From the IMG/VR virus record IMGVR_UViG_3300033998_000168, positions 1 to 22,684 of that record: a stretch of DNA of 22,684 bases, one strand, 5' to 3'. Positions 2,559-19,755 of this stretch are shown here, in pieces. The position numbers and the translations under genes are program-made. How positions within the stretch are numbered: position 1 is the first letter of the stretch; each line of letters begins with the position of its first letter. The DNA is from a virus. The notes under the pieces were generated by a model, which saw only the letters and a list, made by a program, of their open reading frames with translations, ran no database searches and was not told the origin of the DNA.

Positions 2559-2980
2559 TGCACAAGATCGGCACGATTGCGACACTGGCCGAGTACGTGG
2601 GCGAGGCGGCCGCGGCCAGGCTGTGCGCGGCGCTGGGCGGCTGCCAAGTCAAGATTCCTAAGCGGCGCGATGGCGTGTGGTGGGATCGTCTGGTGGCGGC
2701 GATTGGCCCGCGCGACGCCGAGGAGCTTTGCAGCGCCTTCGGGGGCGAGAGCCTCTATATTCCGCGCAACGCGGCCGATGGGCGCGCCGCCCGCCGCCAG
2801 GCGGTGCTCGATTGCCTGGCCGCCGGGATGACGTTCGCCGAGATCGCGCGCAGCCTGGAATTCCGCGTGCGCTACTCCGAGCGCGGCTTGCGCAAGCTAG
2901 TGGCTGGCTTCGTGCCGGACGGTGTGGGCGGGGCAAGCGTCCGGGCGGAAGGCGTTCATGACGAGCACCACGCCGAGTAG
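2558..2980 (+). CDS. Mor/C-family DNA-binding protein
   Basis: A 140-residue protein wedged between terL and the portal gene. Residues 10-36 and 45-71 are two copies of one unit: (V/I)G, then A..LC.A.GG, then IP(K/R). This is the arrangement of the Mor transcription activator family, whose N-terminal part dimerises. Residues 86-116 (AAGMTFAEIARSL, then SERGLRKLV) form the helix-turn-helix. In Mu, Mor and C activate middle and late transcription by contacting RNA polymerase. Here the gene lies inside the late operon rather than upstream of it, so it may autoregulate, act as a packaging cofactor, or activate another promoter. ATG start in a TGATG overlap. Family is fairly sure; target unknown. 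Confidence 0.75.
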   Translation: MHKIGTIATLAEYVGEAAAARLCAALGGCQVKIPKRRDGVWWDRLVAAIGPRDAEELCSAFGGESLYIPRNAADGRAARRQAVLDCLAAGMTFAEIARSLEFRVRYSERGLRKLVAGFVPDGVGGASVRAEGVHDEHHAE

Positions 2981-4484
2981 TGCTACCGGGGCCATCATGA
3001 GTGATCGTATCCGTGGCGACGCCCTTCCATCCCTGGGATCAAGCCTTGCCATCGAGCGCGCGCTGACGCGCTTTGGCTGGCTGGCCAATGGCGACTACGA
3101 TGATCTGCTGACGCAGATCGGCATCAGCCGCGCCAAGCTGCGCGCGCTGCTGGCAGACGATGAAATCTCCGCCGCGCTAGAGACGCGCCGGGCGGCCTGC
3201 ATCAACACGCCGTGGCGCATCGAGCACCCGTCGGCGCGCGCGCGCAAGCTGCTCACCGAGCTGGTCGAGCCGCACATGCACGCGATCATGTCGGCCGCGT
3301 GGGAGGCGATTCCATTCGGCTACTCCGTGCAGGAGATCGTGCTTTCCGACGACGCGGGCCGCATCGGAATCGCGCATGTGGTGGCCTGCCCATTCGAGTG
3401 GTTCGCCCCGCAGCCTGATGGACGGCTGATCTGGCGCGACACGCAGCAAAGCGCCGAAGGCGGCTTCGTGCTCACCGTCAACGAGCCCTCCCTGCGCAAG
3501 CCCTCCGGCGAAGCGCTGCTCGCCAAGGCGTATTGGCCGTGGTTCTTCCGCACCCACGGCTGGCGCATGTGGGCGAAGTTCCTAGAGCAAGCCGCCATCC
3601 CGCTGCTCTACGGCAAGACGCTTGGTGACAAGAGCGGTCTGCTCAACCTACTGCGCACGCTCTCGCAGGGGCCGGTGGCGGTCGTCGACCGCGAGGATGA
3701 GCTCACCGCCTTGGATCAACCCGGCAACAGCCCCAACAAGTTCGCCGAGTTCGAGGTCGCCACCTGCCGGCGCATCCAGCGCCTGATCCTGGGCCAGACG
3801 CTGACCAGCGGGACGGATGGCGGCAGCGGTAACCGGGCGCTGGGCGAGGTGCACGAGCGCGTGCGCGACGAGAAGCGCCGCTCCGACGTGCGCCTGGTGA
3901 CGGCCACCGCCCAGCGCGTGCTCGACATGCTCGCCGCCTACAACGGCATCCAGCCCGGCCGTGTGGTGCTGGAAGACCCGCACGGCCTGGAGCGCGACCG
4001 CGCCGAACGCGACAAGCTGCTGGTGGATTCCGGCATGCTGCGCTTCACCCGCGCCTACCTGGAGGAGAAATACGGCTTCGAGCCGGACGATTTCGAGGAA
4101 CTGCCCGCCGCCGAGGCAGCGGCGATTGCCGATGTGGGCGCAGGCGGCATCGGGCAGGCTGCGCAGACCAACGCACCGCTGCTGACCATGGCCAGCAAGC
4201 CCGGCAGCCTCAAGCCCGATCGCCCGCGCTTCACTGCCGGGCAGCAGGCCGTCGAGGACGAGATCGAGCGCACGCTGCCGGCCATCCCGTCGCCAATCCA
4301 ATCCGCCGCGATCAGGTCTGCCATCCTAGGGGCCAAGGACGCTGACGATCTCTACGAGCGCCTGGCCGTGGCGCTGCAAGACGCGGACGACGCGGTATTT
4401 CGCCAGGCCTTTGAGCGCGCACTTTTTGCGGCGGAAATCATGGGGTACGCCCACGCCCGAAAGGAAGCGATCCGCGAGGACTAA
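2958..4484 (+). CDS. portal protein, Mu gp29-like (DUF935)
   Basis: A 508-residue protein with the layout of DUF935 portal proteins, which form the dodecameric ring at one head vertex through which DNA enters and leaves. Typical segments are the N-terminal helix with LRALLADDE and ISAALETRR, the middle WWF-type block (YWPWFFRTHGWRMWAKFLE) and GKTLGDKSG, then helical wing and barrel regions. The start chosen is the ATG at 2958, five bases after GGAAGG (2947-2952), overlapping the last 23 bases of the Mor-like gene; ATG 2997 is the alternative and would remove 13 residues. The acidic C-terminal region (after residue 380) is Ala/Asp/Glu-rich. Neighbours terL and MuF support the call. Confidence 0.92.
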   Translation: MTSTTPSSATGAIMSDRIRGDALPSLGSSLAIERALTRFGWLANGDYDDLLTQIGISRAKLRALLADDEISAALETRRAACINTPWRIEHPSARARKLLTELVEPHMHAIMSAAWEAIPFGYSVQEIVLSDDAGRIGIAHVVACPFEWFAPQPDGRLIWRDTQQSAEGGFVLTVNEPSLRKPSGEALLAKAYWPWFFRTHGWRMWAKFLEQAAIPLLYGKTLGDKSGLLNLLRTLSQGPVAVVDREDELTALDQPGNSPNKFAEFEVATCRRIQRLILGQTLTSGTDGGSGNRALGEVHERVRDEKRRSDVRLVTATAQRVLDMLAAYNGIQPGRVVLEDPHGLERDRAERDKLLVDSGMLRFTRAYLEEKYGFEPDDFEELPAAEAAAIADVGAGGIGQAAQTNAPLLTMASKPGSLKPDRPRFTAGQQAVEDEIERTLPAIPSPIQSAAIRSAILGAKDADDLYERLAVALQDADDAVFRQAFERALFAAEIMGYAHARKEAIRED

Positions 4485-4486
4485 GC

Positions 4487-6049
4487 GTGGCGGTCACCAT
4501 CGACTTTGATGCAGATCCAGATGTGCAGATCGCCCAGGCCAGGGCGCAAGGGGTTATGCTCCCGGAGGAGTTTTACGCTTTGCCACCGGAAAAGCGTGCG
4601 CTGGCCTTCACCGTTTCCACCCTCGCCAAGTTGGACCAGATACAGGCCATCGCGGATGCACTTGCCCGCATGCAAGAGGCCGGTGGCTCCTTCGATGCTT
4701 TCCTTGAGTGGGCTTTGCGGCAAGATTGGGATTTGCCATACCACCGGCTGGAGACGATCTACCGCAACGCGGTACAGACGGCCTACATGGCCGGGCATTG
4801 GCGATTTTTCGAAGAGACAAAAGACTCCCTGCCTTACCTGATGTACGACGCCATCAACGACGGCCGCACGCGGCCGTCGCACCTTGCGCTTGATAACGTG
4901 ATCCGCCCGGTGGATGACCCGTTTTGGCGCACCCACAGCCCGCCGCTTGGGCACCGCTGCCGCTGCTCATTACGGGCGCTTACCGCCAAGGCGGCCATGC
5001 AGCGTGGCGGGCCGACGGCCAGCATCCCGGCCGAGGCGGCGCCAGATGAGGGGTGGGGCAATGATCCGCGTGGCTGGAGCAGGACGCTGGCCAAGCTGCT
5101 GGCTGACAAGGCCAGCAAGACGCACAAGGCGATTGATGAGGCCATACGCGACGTAGCGCCGTGGCGGACGGCCACGGCAGGCACAGATGAGGGCGACTGG
5201 CATGATGCAGCGTTCGTGGAGTCTCCTCAGTGGCTAAAGGCCGCTGTGGCCAAGCGAGGCCCGCTAAAGGGAGGCGTGCGAGTAGATCCAGGCGCCGTGT
5301 CGGCGCACTACAGCGCGCGGGAAGACGCCATCAGCATCAAGGACGCGGATAAGACAAGCTTGTACAGCCTTGGCACGTGGCGCCACGAGTATGGCCACGC
5401 CATCGATAGGTCTTTGCGCCGCGGACGCACCTTCCGCAGCTCCGAGGACGACTTCTTGGGCGCGATGGCGGCTGACGCCGATGACCTGATCCGTCTCGGA
5501 GGTTATGGCGCCGAGGCCAAGGCGGTGCGCTCAAAGCTTGACAGAGCTTACAAGAAGGCCATAGACTCGCTCAATAACGCCGAAGACCGCGATGCGTGGC
5601 TGACAAAGCGGTTTGCGATGATCGGTCTGGACTTCGAGGAGGTCAAGGTGGCGATGCGCGAGCATACGTGGTTTGCAAGCAATTTGTCTGGCATCGGGTT
5701 GCATGCGAGGTACGCGCGCATTGCTGTCGCCATTGCGCGGCGCGACGCGCAAGGTTTGCTAGACGCTATGGCAGGCACCGACCCTATAGAAAGGCGGCTT
5801 ACCTACTCAAAGGGCGCGGTTGGGAGCCTGTCCGATCTGATCGGAAGCGCCACCCTCAACAGGGTGGGCGGATTCGACAAGTCCGGATTTGGGCACAAAG
5901 ATTCATATTATCAAGACATAAGCCGGCAAGCGGCTGAATGTTTTGCAAACCTGACGTGCATGTACGCTGATAGTCGTCGTGTGTTTGCAAAAATCGTTGA
6001 ATCCATGACGCCGCGCATGGCTGCGATGTTCAAGGAGATTCTGAAGTGA
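4487..6049 (+). CDS. MuF head protein with C-terminal HExxH zincin domain (putative polymorphic toxin)
   Basis: A 520-residue fusion. Residues about 85-166 are the MuF (Mu gp30/SPP1 gp7) head-morphogenesis domain: TAYMAGHWRFFE, DAINDGRTRPSH and the closing GHRCRC at 155-160. Classical MuF proteins end soon after; here about 300 more residues follow a variable linker. The extension carries HEYGH at 300-304, the zinc-binding signature of zincin metallopeptidases, and a likely third ligand E484 in QAAECFANL, preceded by GFGHKDSYY. MuF proteins sit inside the head and can be ejected with DNA, and MuF fusions to toxin domains are a known polymorphic-toxin class. The C-terminal part is visibly less GC-rich than the MuF part. 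GTG start follows GAGGA (4476-4480). Toxin activity is inferred; a protease for head maturation is the alternative. Confidence 0.85.
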   Translation: MAVTIDFDADPDVQIAQARAQGVMLPEEFYALPPEKRALAFTVSTLAKLDQIQAIADALARMQEAGGSFDAFLEWALRQDWDLPYHRLETIYRNAVQTAYMAGHWRFFEETKDSLPYLMYDAINDGRTRPSHLALDNVIRPVDDPFWRTHSPPLGHRCRCSLRALTAKAAMQRGGPTASIPAEAAPDEGWGNDPRGWSRTLAKLLADKASKTHKAIDEAIRDVAPWRTATAGTDEGDWHDAAFVESPQWLKAAVAKRGPLKGGVRVDPGAVSAHYSAREDAISIKDADKTSLYSLGTWRHEYGHAIDRSLRRGRTFRSSEDDFLGAMAADADDLIRLGGYGAEAKAVRSKLDRAYKKAIDSLNNAEDRDAWLTKRFAMIGLDFEEVKVAMREHTWFASNLSGIGLHARYARIAVAIARRDAQGLLDAMAGTDPIERRLTYSKGAVGSLSDLIGSATLNRVGGFDKSGFGHKDSYYQDISRQAAECFANLTCMYADSRRVFAKIVESMTPRMAAMFKEILK

Positions 6050-6249
6050 CTGAAGACGAGTACGTGGCCGTCTGCGAAGAGTACCAGCGCAAGTTCGGGT
6101 CTTTACCTGGGGTGCCGCCCCTAGACTTCGGGGTGCCGATGATGACGCTGGAAAAAGAAGCGTCATACATGCTGGCCGCCATCGAGGCCGGCAAGCCGAT
6201 TGATTGGCTGGAGGTGCTCAAGCCGCTACCAGCTGGATGTGTGTCCTAG
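6046..6249 (+). CDS. small protein after MuF-zincin; candidate immunity/antitoxin
   Basis: A 67-residue protein, probably cytoplasmic, with no signal peptide or membrane segment. GTG overlaps the MuF stop (GTGA) and lies eight bases after a strong AAGGAG (6032-6037), so it is tightly coupled to the toxin-like gene. The sequence is acidic (TEDEYVAVCEEY at the N-terminus), with a hydrophobic middle (LDFGVPMMTLEKEASYML) and a C-terminal KPIDWLEVLKPLP. No family is recognised from the sequence. Small acidic genes directly downstream of polymorphic toxins are often the cognate immunity proteins, needed to protect the lysogen; that role here is inference from position, size and coupling only. Similar lower GC to the adjacent toxin domain suggests they travelled together. 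Confidence 0.75.
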   Translation: MTEDEYVAVCEEYQRKFGSLPGVPPLDFGVPMMTLEKEASYMLAAIEAGKPIDWLEVLKPLPAGCVS

Positions 6250-18372: not shown

Positions 18373-19755
18373 ATGAAAGCCGGAATGCTCAATATGTTTT
18401 CGGTGCGGCTTGTTGGTAACCTGGAGCCGGGTGCAGAAACGATAGTTGTGTCTGGATCGTCCATAGACTCATATAGTGTCTTGCAGGCCCCTTTCTACCT
18501 TACTGCCGACATCCCAGGGTCGCCAGTCTTGAGCTGTGCAAGGATGCAAGATTGGACTGATGGATTGGCAACCATTGGACTAACAGCCGCCTGGACAGGT
18601 CAGACGATACCAGAAGGCACCGACCTGCATATGCGCGTATGTGCCGAGCTGCTCTATCGTCTATCAAACGTCAGCCCCGCGAGCGGATCTATCGACGTGA
18701 GTTATCACATCCCGACGTCTGGGCCGGAAGGCGCAATAGATTATGTGGCAGTCGGAGAAGGGTGTTGGGCTGAGAGCGACAGCGTAGCTATAGGCAAGGG
18801 CGCGTATGCGTCGGCTAAAGGTATTGCCATAGGCAAAAACTCGTATGCTGACGGCGAGAGCATTGGGATTGGCGATGCTGATGCAAACGGCAGCGGAACT
18901 GTCGCTATTGGCAAAGGGTGCCAAACGGTGCAAAACGGATCTATAGCCATCGGCAATGGTGCAACAGGGTATGGGGAGGGGAGTGTCGGCATCGGAAAAA
19001 ACGCAAACGCGTCCTCACAGCGGTGCATAAGCGTTGGCCTGGACGCATACTCCTATGATGATAGCGTTGCGATCGGCAACGGCGCAAACAGCTCCGGATC
19101 GCGCGGCGTCAGCATAGGCGTGGCAGCGAACGCATATGGGTATGATGGCATCGCGATCGGCCGGTCAGCGGTAACCTACAACTACAGCATCGCCATCGGA
19201 TGCCTGTCAGAGGCGCAAGGGGAATATGGCATATCGATTGGGAGCGGCAATCCAAATAATTGGGCGCATGCTATCGCCATTGGAGATGGGGCAAGCCCGG
19301 GCACTTACTGTGTTGCCGACGTGCGCGCCCTGTTTGCACTGCCAAATATTTCAACAGACCCAGCCCCAAGAAGCTCCAATGATTACGTTATTCGGCACAG
19401 GACTGCGCCGCAAATCGTACTCGTTACCAAGCCGCTGTCGCTTGTTTCTCCGGCTGGAAGTGAGTTTATTCAGCTTCCTCCTGGACTGCGATTTTTCGTG
19501 ACAAGCATTGAGGCAATCAAGATTTCGCAATATCCATGGACTGGTGTGCCTAAAATATCGGTGGGGACCAGCTCAACCGACAAAACATCTATCCTCCCCC
19601 CAAGCGATTTTGACGTAACCCAACAATATCAGCGCGTTGTGTTCGCACCGATCGGATCTGTCGGCGTGGAGTCTATATATGTGGACGTGCCAACGGTTTG
19701 CTCTGGGTCTGGGCAGGCAAAAGTTGTGCTGCGTGGGTTTTTGCTGGCTGTATAG
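18373..19755 (+). CDS. tail fibre with YadA-head-type repeats
   Basis: A 460-residue protein. Residues 1-124 would attach to the tail; 125-310 carry about 14 copies of a 13-14 residue unit of the form (V/I)(A/S/G)IG followed by a variable loop, the hallmark of the left-handed beta-roll head of YadA-type trimeric adhesins; 311-460 is a unique beta-rich tip (SAGEF-like SPAGSEFIQLPPG, then VFAPIGSVGVESIYV). There is no signal peptide, stalk or C-terminal membrane anchor, so it is not an autotransporter but a phage fibre that borrows the adhesin fold. Trimer formation and receptor binding are inferred. ATG 18373 lies nine bases after AGGAG. AT-rich like its upstream neighbour. Confidence 0.82.
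   Translation: MKAGMLNMFSVRLVGNLEPGAETIVVSGSSIDSYSVLQAPFYLTADIPGSPVLSCARMQDWTDGLATIGLTAAWTGQTIPEGTDLHMRVCAELLYRLSNVSPASGSIDVSYHIPTSGPEGAIDYVAVGEGCWAESDSVAIGKGAYASAKGIAIGKNSYADGESIGIGDADANGSGTVAIGKGCQTVQNGSIAIGNGATGYGEGSVGIGKNANASSQRCISVGLDAYSYDDSVAIGNGANSSGSRGVSIGVAANAYGYDGIAIGRSAVTYNYSIAIGCLSEAQGEYGISIGSGNPNNWAHAIAIGDGASPGTYCVADVRALFALPNISTDPAPRSSNDYVIRHRTAPQIVLVTKPLSLVSPAGSEFIQLPPGLRFFVTSIEAIKISQYPWTGVPKISVGTSSTDKTSILPPSDFDVTQQYQRVVFAPIGSVGVESIYVDVPTVCSGSGQAKVVLRGFLLAV
18745..19302 (+). repeat. YadA-head-type repeats in fibre gene (about 14 units of 39-42 bases)
   Basis: Protein-level repeat at residues 125-310 of the fibre. Each unit begins with VAIG, IAIG, VGIG, ISIG or a close variant and lasts 13 or 14 residues. 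The DNA copies are diverged, so this is an old array rather than a recent expansion. Confidence 0.85.

Follow-up and report, generated by a model that had tools for sequence, protein, structure and literature searches.

A predicted zincin metalloprotease domain on a phage MuF head protein and the small acidic gene that accompanies it

The closest described systems are the MuF toxins, which are widespread, with few characterised. Published MuF biology includes packaging of MuF proteins and their release with DNA (PMC5512222, PMC5576092), and Jamet et al. 2017 (PMC5576092) reported a metallopeptidase domain in 20% of 191 MuF toxins, with 89.4% followed by a small open reading frame (ORF). Adjacent immunity proteins have been shown experimentally for Apk2 and Bxa, with Apk2 named as the sole characterised kind before Bxa (PMC11699363). 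Because metallopeptidase MuF toxins with small downstream ORFs have been reported by Jamet et al., the kind of arrangement described below is already known. Zincin domains also occur in polyvalent phage proteins, for which a role in processing or on host targets has been proposed (PMC5512222), and as C-terminal HExxH toxin domains of polymorphic toxins, namely the Tox-MPTase1-5, PVC- and ALF-type toxins (Zhang et al. 2012, PMC3482391), which our domain resembles in these respects. Tox-MPTase1-5 are assigned to T2SS, T6SS, T7SS, PVC or TcdB-type routes, not MuF, and are listed with no immunity protein; for ALF-type toxins, Imm-SuFu is the only immunity protein listed (PMC3482391).

Here we analysed an IMG/VR virus record of 22,684 bases, a fragment that we refer to as the window. 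An initial annotation of its sequence had proposed a fusion of a MuF domain to a zincin, coupled to a candidate immunity gene. The features of this locus are as follows.

2922-4484: Mu-type portal gene, adjoining the MuF-zincin gene (PF06074, Portal_Mu, E 5.8e-63)
4487..6049, + strand: gene for the MuF-zincin fusion protein (520 aa, GTG start), directly 3' of the portal gene
4649..4972, + strand: MuF domain, residues 55-162, a head/portal-associated carrier (PF04233, E 1.3e-20)
5159..6046, + strand: C-terminal zincin-like metalloprotease domain, residues 225-520 (about 296 aa), delimited from the alignment, its invariant residues and the AlphaFold model
5384..5398, + strand: HEYGH active-site motif, residues 300-304, on a predicted metal-binding helix
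5936..5938, + strand: codon of the invariant E484, the predicted third metal ligand, on a later helix
6032..6037, + strand: AAGGAG ribosome-binding site of the partner gene, within the final codons of the effector, read from the sequence
6046..6249, + strand: partner protein (67 aa, pI 4.29, GTG start), a candidate cognate inhibitor or immunity protein

The remaining genes of the window belong to a Mu-like module for head and tail, with a terminase, a Mor-like activator, the portal, decoration protein D, capsid E and tail proteins. The integrase family PF00589 had 0 matches within the 22.7-kb fragment. Searches with the Mu transposase families PF02914 and PF09299 gave no match either, but their controls were equally silent, and we draw no conclusion from them. 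PF04233 is the sole Pfam family above cut-off in the 520-aa protein, which also matches the PHROGs family phrog_220, 'minor head protein and DNA pilot' (E 5.5e-50). All the elements that the initial annotation had read from the sequence were recovered: a MuF domain ending in GHRCRC at residue 160 (here residues 155-160), an extension of about 300 residues containing HEYGH at 300-304, E484 as a possible third ligand, and an acidic, GTGA-coupled 67-residue gene with its own AAGGAG (here, the start overlaps the effector stop by 4 nt and AAGGAG stands 8 nt before the GTG).

The arrangement is like that of MuF polymorphic toxins in its N-terminal MuF domain beside a portal gene and its variable C-terminal enzyme domain (PMC5576092, PMC11699363), and in its small downstream ORF (theirs <150 aa); the association of MuF toxins with temperate phages has a parallel here in one Methylophaga relative. 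It differs in that this zincin/partner family is not described in the main text of those papers, and in that the cassette also occurs on non-MuF carriers.

Relatives were collected by a pattern-based scan of IMG/VR, which gave 39 loci, and by three further scans and one of GTDB genomes, which added more; searching 369 and 398 genomes with profiles contributed additional ones. Viral contigs and the first genome loci together yielded about 48 distinct effectors once copies with identical last 150 residues had been collapsed (49 entries, two being halves of L032). Two loci, L001 and L002, belong to the window's own phage (99.9% DNA identity) and were excluded as independent evidence. Searches of INPHARED phages and PLSDB plasmids with the C-terminal domain and the partner returned mostly nothing, with one query finding a zincin remnant in Nodularia phages. 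The Methylophaga relative (L016/L043) lies to the right of a tyrosine integrase and of bacterial genes that we take, from their translations, to be valS, pepA, lptF and lptG; this flank and the integrase indicate an integrated prophage.

The catalytic residues of the zincin domain are strictly conserved. Among 41 aligned partner-bearing members, R299, H300, E301, G303, H304 and D307 are invariant, and so are D450, G469, H470, Y474, E484 and A487. As TWRHEYGH was among the seeds of the first scan, we inspected members found through other seeds, and HExGHxxD is kept in L048, L050, L054, L056 (twice), L060, L063, L064, L072 and L073, so that the invariance of TWRHEYGH is not an artefact of the search seed. 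An AlphaFold2 model of the domain (27-row alignment A1; pLDDT 96.1, pTM 0.94) runs from a three-stranded sheet to the HEYGH helix (68-85 in A1 numbering), a helical insert of about 170 residues and the E484 helix (254-270). The model is a confident one with a zincin-like topology, and E484 is likely to be the third metal ligand: alignments and model together place an invariant HExxH and a downstream Glu on a second helix, as in gluzincin-type enzymes. The domain alone has a pI of 8.96.

Fold searches of the PDB gave no match at E<=1e-3, the weak matches including Certhrax, ArdC and lethal factor. Among viral structures there was one strong relative (BFVD A0A6J7WAM8; TM 0.82, E 1.1e-13), and the weaker matches were minor capsid proteins. 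We do not claim kinship with anthrax lethal factor, for which the profile match (E 0.0085) covered about 38 positions around HExxH and the fold match had an E >1. The order of elements (three-stranded sheet, HExxH helix, variable insert, Glu helix) is that of the MPTase zincin of polyvalent proteins (Iyer et al. 2017, PMC5512222), and the invariant D307 corresponds to the Asp found three residues past HExxH in one MPTase-PolyVal clade. The His that closes strand 2 in that clade was not seen, the conserved His early in our domain, H239, lying in a helix of the model and not at the end of a strand, and the Pfam family for MPTase-PolyVal (PF18818) stayed below cut-off, with a best E of 0.084 in one of 27 members. 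The parts of that paper drawn on here mention no downstream partner for polyvalent-protein MPTases.

Toxin families of Pfam and NCBIfam gave nothing above cut-off for the C-terminal domain in 27 members; we therefore class it as MuF-toxin-like in its mode of action and treat its membership of the group as provisional. PHROG 4728 ('head morphogenesis') matches the zincin domain in 9 of 27 members (best E 3.4e-8); aside from this family, Pfam, NCBIfam and PHROGs returned isolated chance-level matches for the zincin and the partner. Both PHROG 4728 and A0A6J7WAM8 (from an uncultured Caudovirales phage) are annotated for head morphogenesis only, and neither annotation names a metalloprotease or a partner. 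The combination of zincin and partner, which the initial annotation suggested may be undescribed, is apparently uncatalogued: it was found neither in the curated libraries nor in the main texts of the openly accessible papers that were searched.

In phages the partner is consistently linked to the effector. Its homologue is the next ORF after the effector in all 44 phage-borne loci with readable downstream DNA (42 in the main tally, plus L032 and L050). The partners of the 42 loci are 56-96 residues long, acidic in nearly every case (median pI 4.2), and 41 of them overlap the effector or begin <=4 nt away. The usual overlap is 4, 8, 11 or 14 nt and varies by lineage, which argues that the arrangement is not a single frozen sequence, and most relatives have a Shine-Dalgarno-like stretch at the equivalent position before the partner. 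The family motif (YxxxFG..P ... AIxxGxxI ... followed by a C-terminal tail) includes conserved positions Y13, F17, G18, P25 and A45, and the tail, which often ends in I, L, V, Y, S or T, might, at a guess, enter the active-site cleft. The predicted structure (pLDDT 84.7, pTM 0.70) has two main helices; its fold search gave chance matches and no fold relative, and scanning 27 partners against Pfam and NCBIfam gave chance-level matches and no curated Imm model. In one locus (L032:2092-4055), an in-frame stop splits the zincin gene between HExxH and the Glu helix, and the partner is intact (E 1.5e-13).

A profile built from 27 partners was run against all 757 six-frame ORFs of 14 unused loci. The top 15 ORFs were exactly those behind the 15 effectors (E 7.9e-16 to 0.12), and the best non-partner ORF had an E of 0.21; the three highest E values among the 15 (0.03 to 0.12) belong to ORFs that are poor matches alone, with mainly positional support. 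It is scarcely credible, then, that the downstream ORF is just another short gene of the head, or an artefact of the overlap, with no role in the system. Its shortness, and the absence of the copy in the window from Pfam, NCBIfam and PHROGs matches, would suit such an account, but the held-out test contradicts it, Y13, F17, P25 and A45 are conserved, and the partner stands at the equivalent place behind zincins on unrelated carriers and is absent where the zincin is absent.

The carriers themselves are diverse, comprising several MuF types, polyproteins with DUF2213 and topoisomerase IB, and N termini without a Pfam match, together with almost bare zincin domains (L063, L064), and the partner accompanies the zincin whatever the carrier. 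Another account makes the zincin an autoprotease, cleaving the carrier to which it is attached as the head matures, in the way proposed for P1 DdrB, with the small gene as an assembly auxiliary. The precedent (Iyer et al. 2017, PMC5512222) and the polyprotein nature of several carriers (L049, L050) speak for it. In MuF carriers, however, the zincin is the extreme C terminus, with nothing past it to release, near-solo versions (L063, L064) exist, and related MuF phages have heads without a zincin; we consider this account quite improbable.

In L049:89-4264 and L050:293-4417, DUF2213, the catalytic core of a topoisomerase IB (E 2e-16 in the former, 1e-16 in the latter) and the zincin form one protein, with xxHPRxxxGxF..GGG motifs repeated between the domains; to our knowledge, association of a topoisomerase IB with the virion would be unusual. 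Another phage (L056:1-3465) has two tandem zincin-partner cassettes, each with its own overlapping partner.

The initial annotation had also named C-terminal swapping among MuF homologues as a point to check, and comparison of close phage pairs bore this out. The phages of L017 and L019 are about 92% identical in the DNA of the MuF part; from about 30 codons before HEYGH, through the zincin core and the greater part of the partner, identity drops to 48-75%, and in the gene that follows it is back at 92-100%. The break between L010 and L011 falls at the same place, with protein identities of 81% (MuF), about 45% (zincin), 54% (partner) and 98% (next gene). In addition, L004 and L010 share a 223-nt block, 89% identical and ending near HEYGH, whereas their MuF parts are merely 24% alike. 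In the L017/L019 and L010/L011 pairs, the catalytic part and the partner diverge or are swapped as one block between conserved flanks.

Distances between effectors and partners were correlated (Mantel r 0.42 for 41 pairs, and 0.55 within MuF carriers); within MuF carriers the zincin-carrier correlation was 0.33 against 0.55 for zincin-partner, shared ancestry contributing to all of these values. A regional mirror-tree analysis gave r 0.27-0.53 throughout and indicated no single contact surface. Neither the zincin nor the partner is present with five MuF relatives from database phages, whose N-terminal identity is 26-41%; the zincin is therefore not a general structural part, an alternative that the initial annotation had raised and that also fares badly against the conservation of the domain as a catalytic site on unrelated carriers. 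Overall, the MuF-zincin fusion and a genuine coupled partner gene, standing behind every readable phage-borne effector and co-diverging with the protease, both hold up, and the likeliest reading, by analogy with known MuF proteins, is a virion-carried metalloprotease that the partner would inhibit in the producing cell. Such a zincin may kill the infected cell, redirect it or disarm a defence.

Protection of the lysogen is the weakest step of the initial interpretation. A promoter-like TTGACA-18-TAGACT lies at 5538-5567, inside the zincin gene and upstream of the partner, but 2 such sites were found against 0.7 expected in shuffled sequence, a weak excess that leaves no own promoter evident for the partner. 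With the partner coupled inside a late head operon and this site hardly exceeding what shuffling yields, the cell that makes virions is no less likely than the lysogen to be the one protected. The same observations would suit a partner that is a dedicated chaperone or loading adaptor, one that folds the zincin or holds it inactive until it is packed in the head; the protease would then aid infection by cleaving a host defence or regulatory protein, with no killing and no lysogen immunity. Translational coupling in the late head operon, the lack of a clear own promoter, the acidic, helical and small partner (as many secretion chaperones are) and the roles proposed for polyvalent-protein zincins in processing or on host targets (PMC5512222) all agree with this, and a zincin-specific chaperone would yield the same genomic pattern. 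Co-swapping of effector core and partner, however, fits a cognate inhibitor at least equally, and two candidate chromosomal orphan partners, one of them beside the cytosine methyltransferase/Vsr-like locus L133, would fit immunity better; we regard the chaperone account as unlikely.

Taken together, these data lead us to consider it fairly probable that the locus is a mobile cassette of effector and inhibitor mounted on a phage head protein. The domain appears to move among unrelated phages with one small acidic gene, in the fashion of weapon and antidote. By analogy with known MuF biology, which is the source of the packaging and delivery steps, the MuF domain would serve to dock the protein inside the head, close to the portal, and a few copies would exit with the DNA. 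The C-terminal domain would act as a gluzincin-type metalloprotease, with H300, H304 and E484 binding the metal and E301 serving as general base, and once delivered would cleave a protein of the infected cell. The acidic partner, made from the overlapping start codon, would bind the protease and keep it inactive in the virion-producing cell, an inhibition that may extend to lysogens. The proteolytic activity, the toxicity and the inhibition by the partner are inferred. With a defined protease-partner pair, one could ask if enzymes carried in the capsid get into infected cells and damage them, and which cell, if any, an immunity gene of a phage head operon shields: the producer of virions or the lysogen. 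For specificity tests, the two pairs of phages with swapped blocks offer natural cognate and non-cognate combinations.

More tentatively, and with less than an even chance in our estimation, the pair may represent a new toxin-immunity family: a virion-delivered zincin and its dedicated inhibitor, exchanged among MuF, DUF2213/topoisomerase and near-solo genes, diversifying under inter-phage antagonism (superinfection competition) and leaving orphan immunity copies in chromosomes. The four related genomes G409, G466, G419 and G445 each have a zincin homologue that keeps HEFGHYxD where the fragment covers the motif, with no partner nearby or genome-wide at E<=0.001. An apparently active domain is thus tolerated there without a partner, which argues against universal toxicity; the partnerless chromosomal form would be either harmless to its owner or controlled by other means.

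In the two cases among these four that were examined in full (L122:4561-6366 and L123:3941-5770), the partnerless MuF-zincin homologue is chromosomal, lies in a conserved neighbourhood of non-phage genes and has apparently been domesticated. Conversely, L133:1495-1671 is a partner-like 58-aa gene on a chromosome without a zincin, with a cytosine methyltransferase/Vsr-like nuclease pair on one side and a GIY-YIG protein on the other, and is a candidate orphan immunity gene; L134 has a second partner-like gene, likewise on a chromosome without a zincin. Both score 31.6 bits, compared with 26.9 for a false positive inside an aminotransferase (L135), and are candidates only.

In Nodularia phage vB_NspS-kac65v161 (MK605243.1; L137:792-2985), the sole cultured phage found carrying the pair, gp194 is a zincin C-terminal remnant beside the transposase gene gp193, and gp195, of 64 aa, is homologous to the partner (E 2e-7). 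Within the window itself, a tail-region protein at 18373-19755 contains YadA head repeats (PF05658, E 6e-11).
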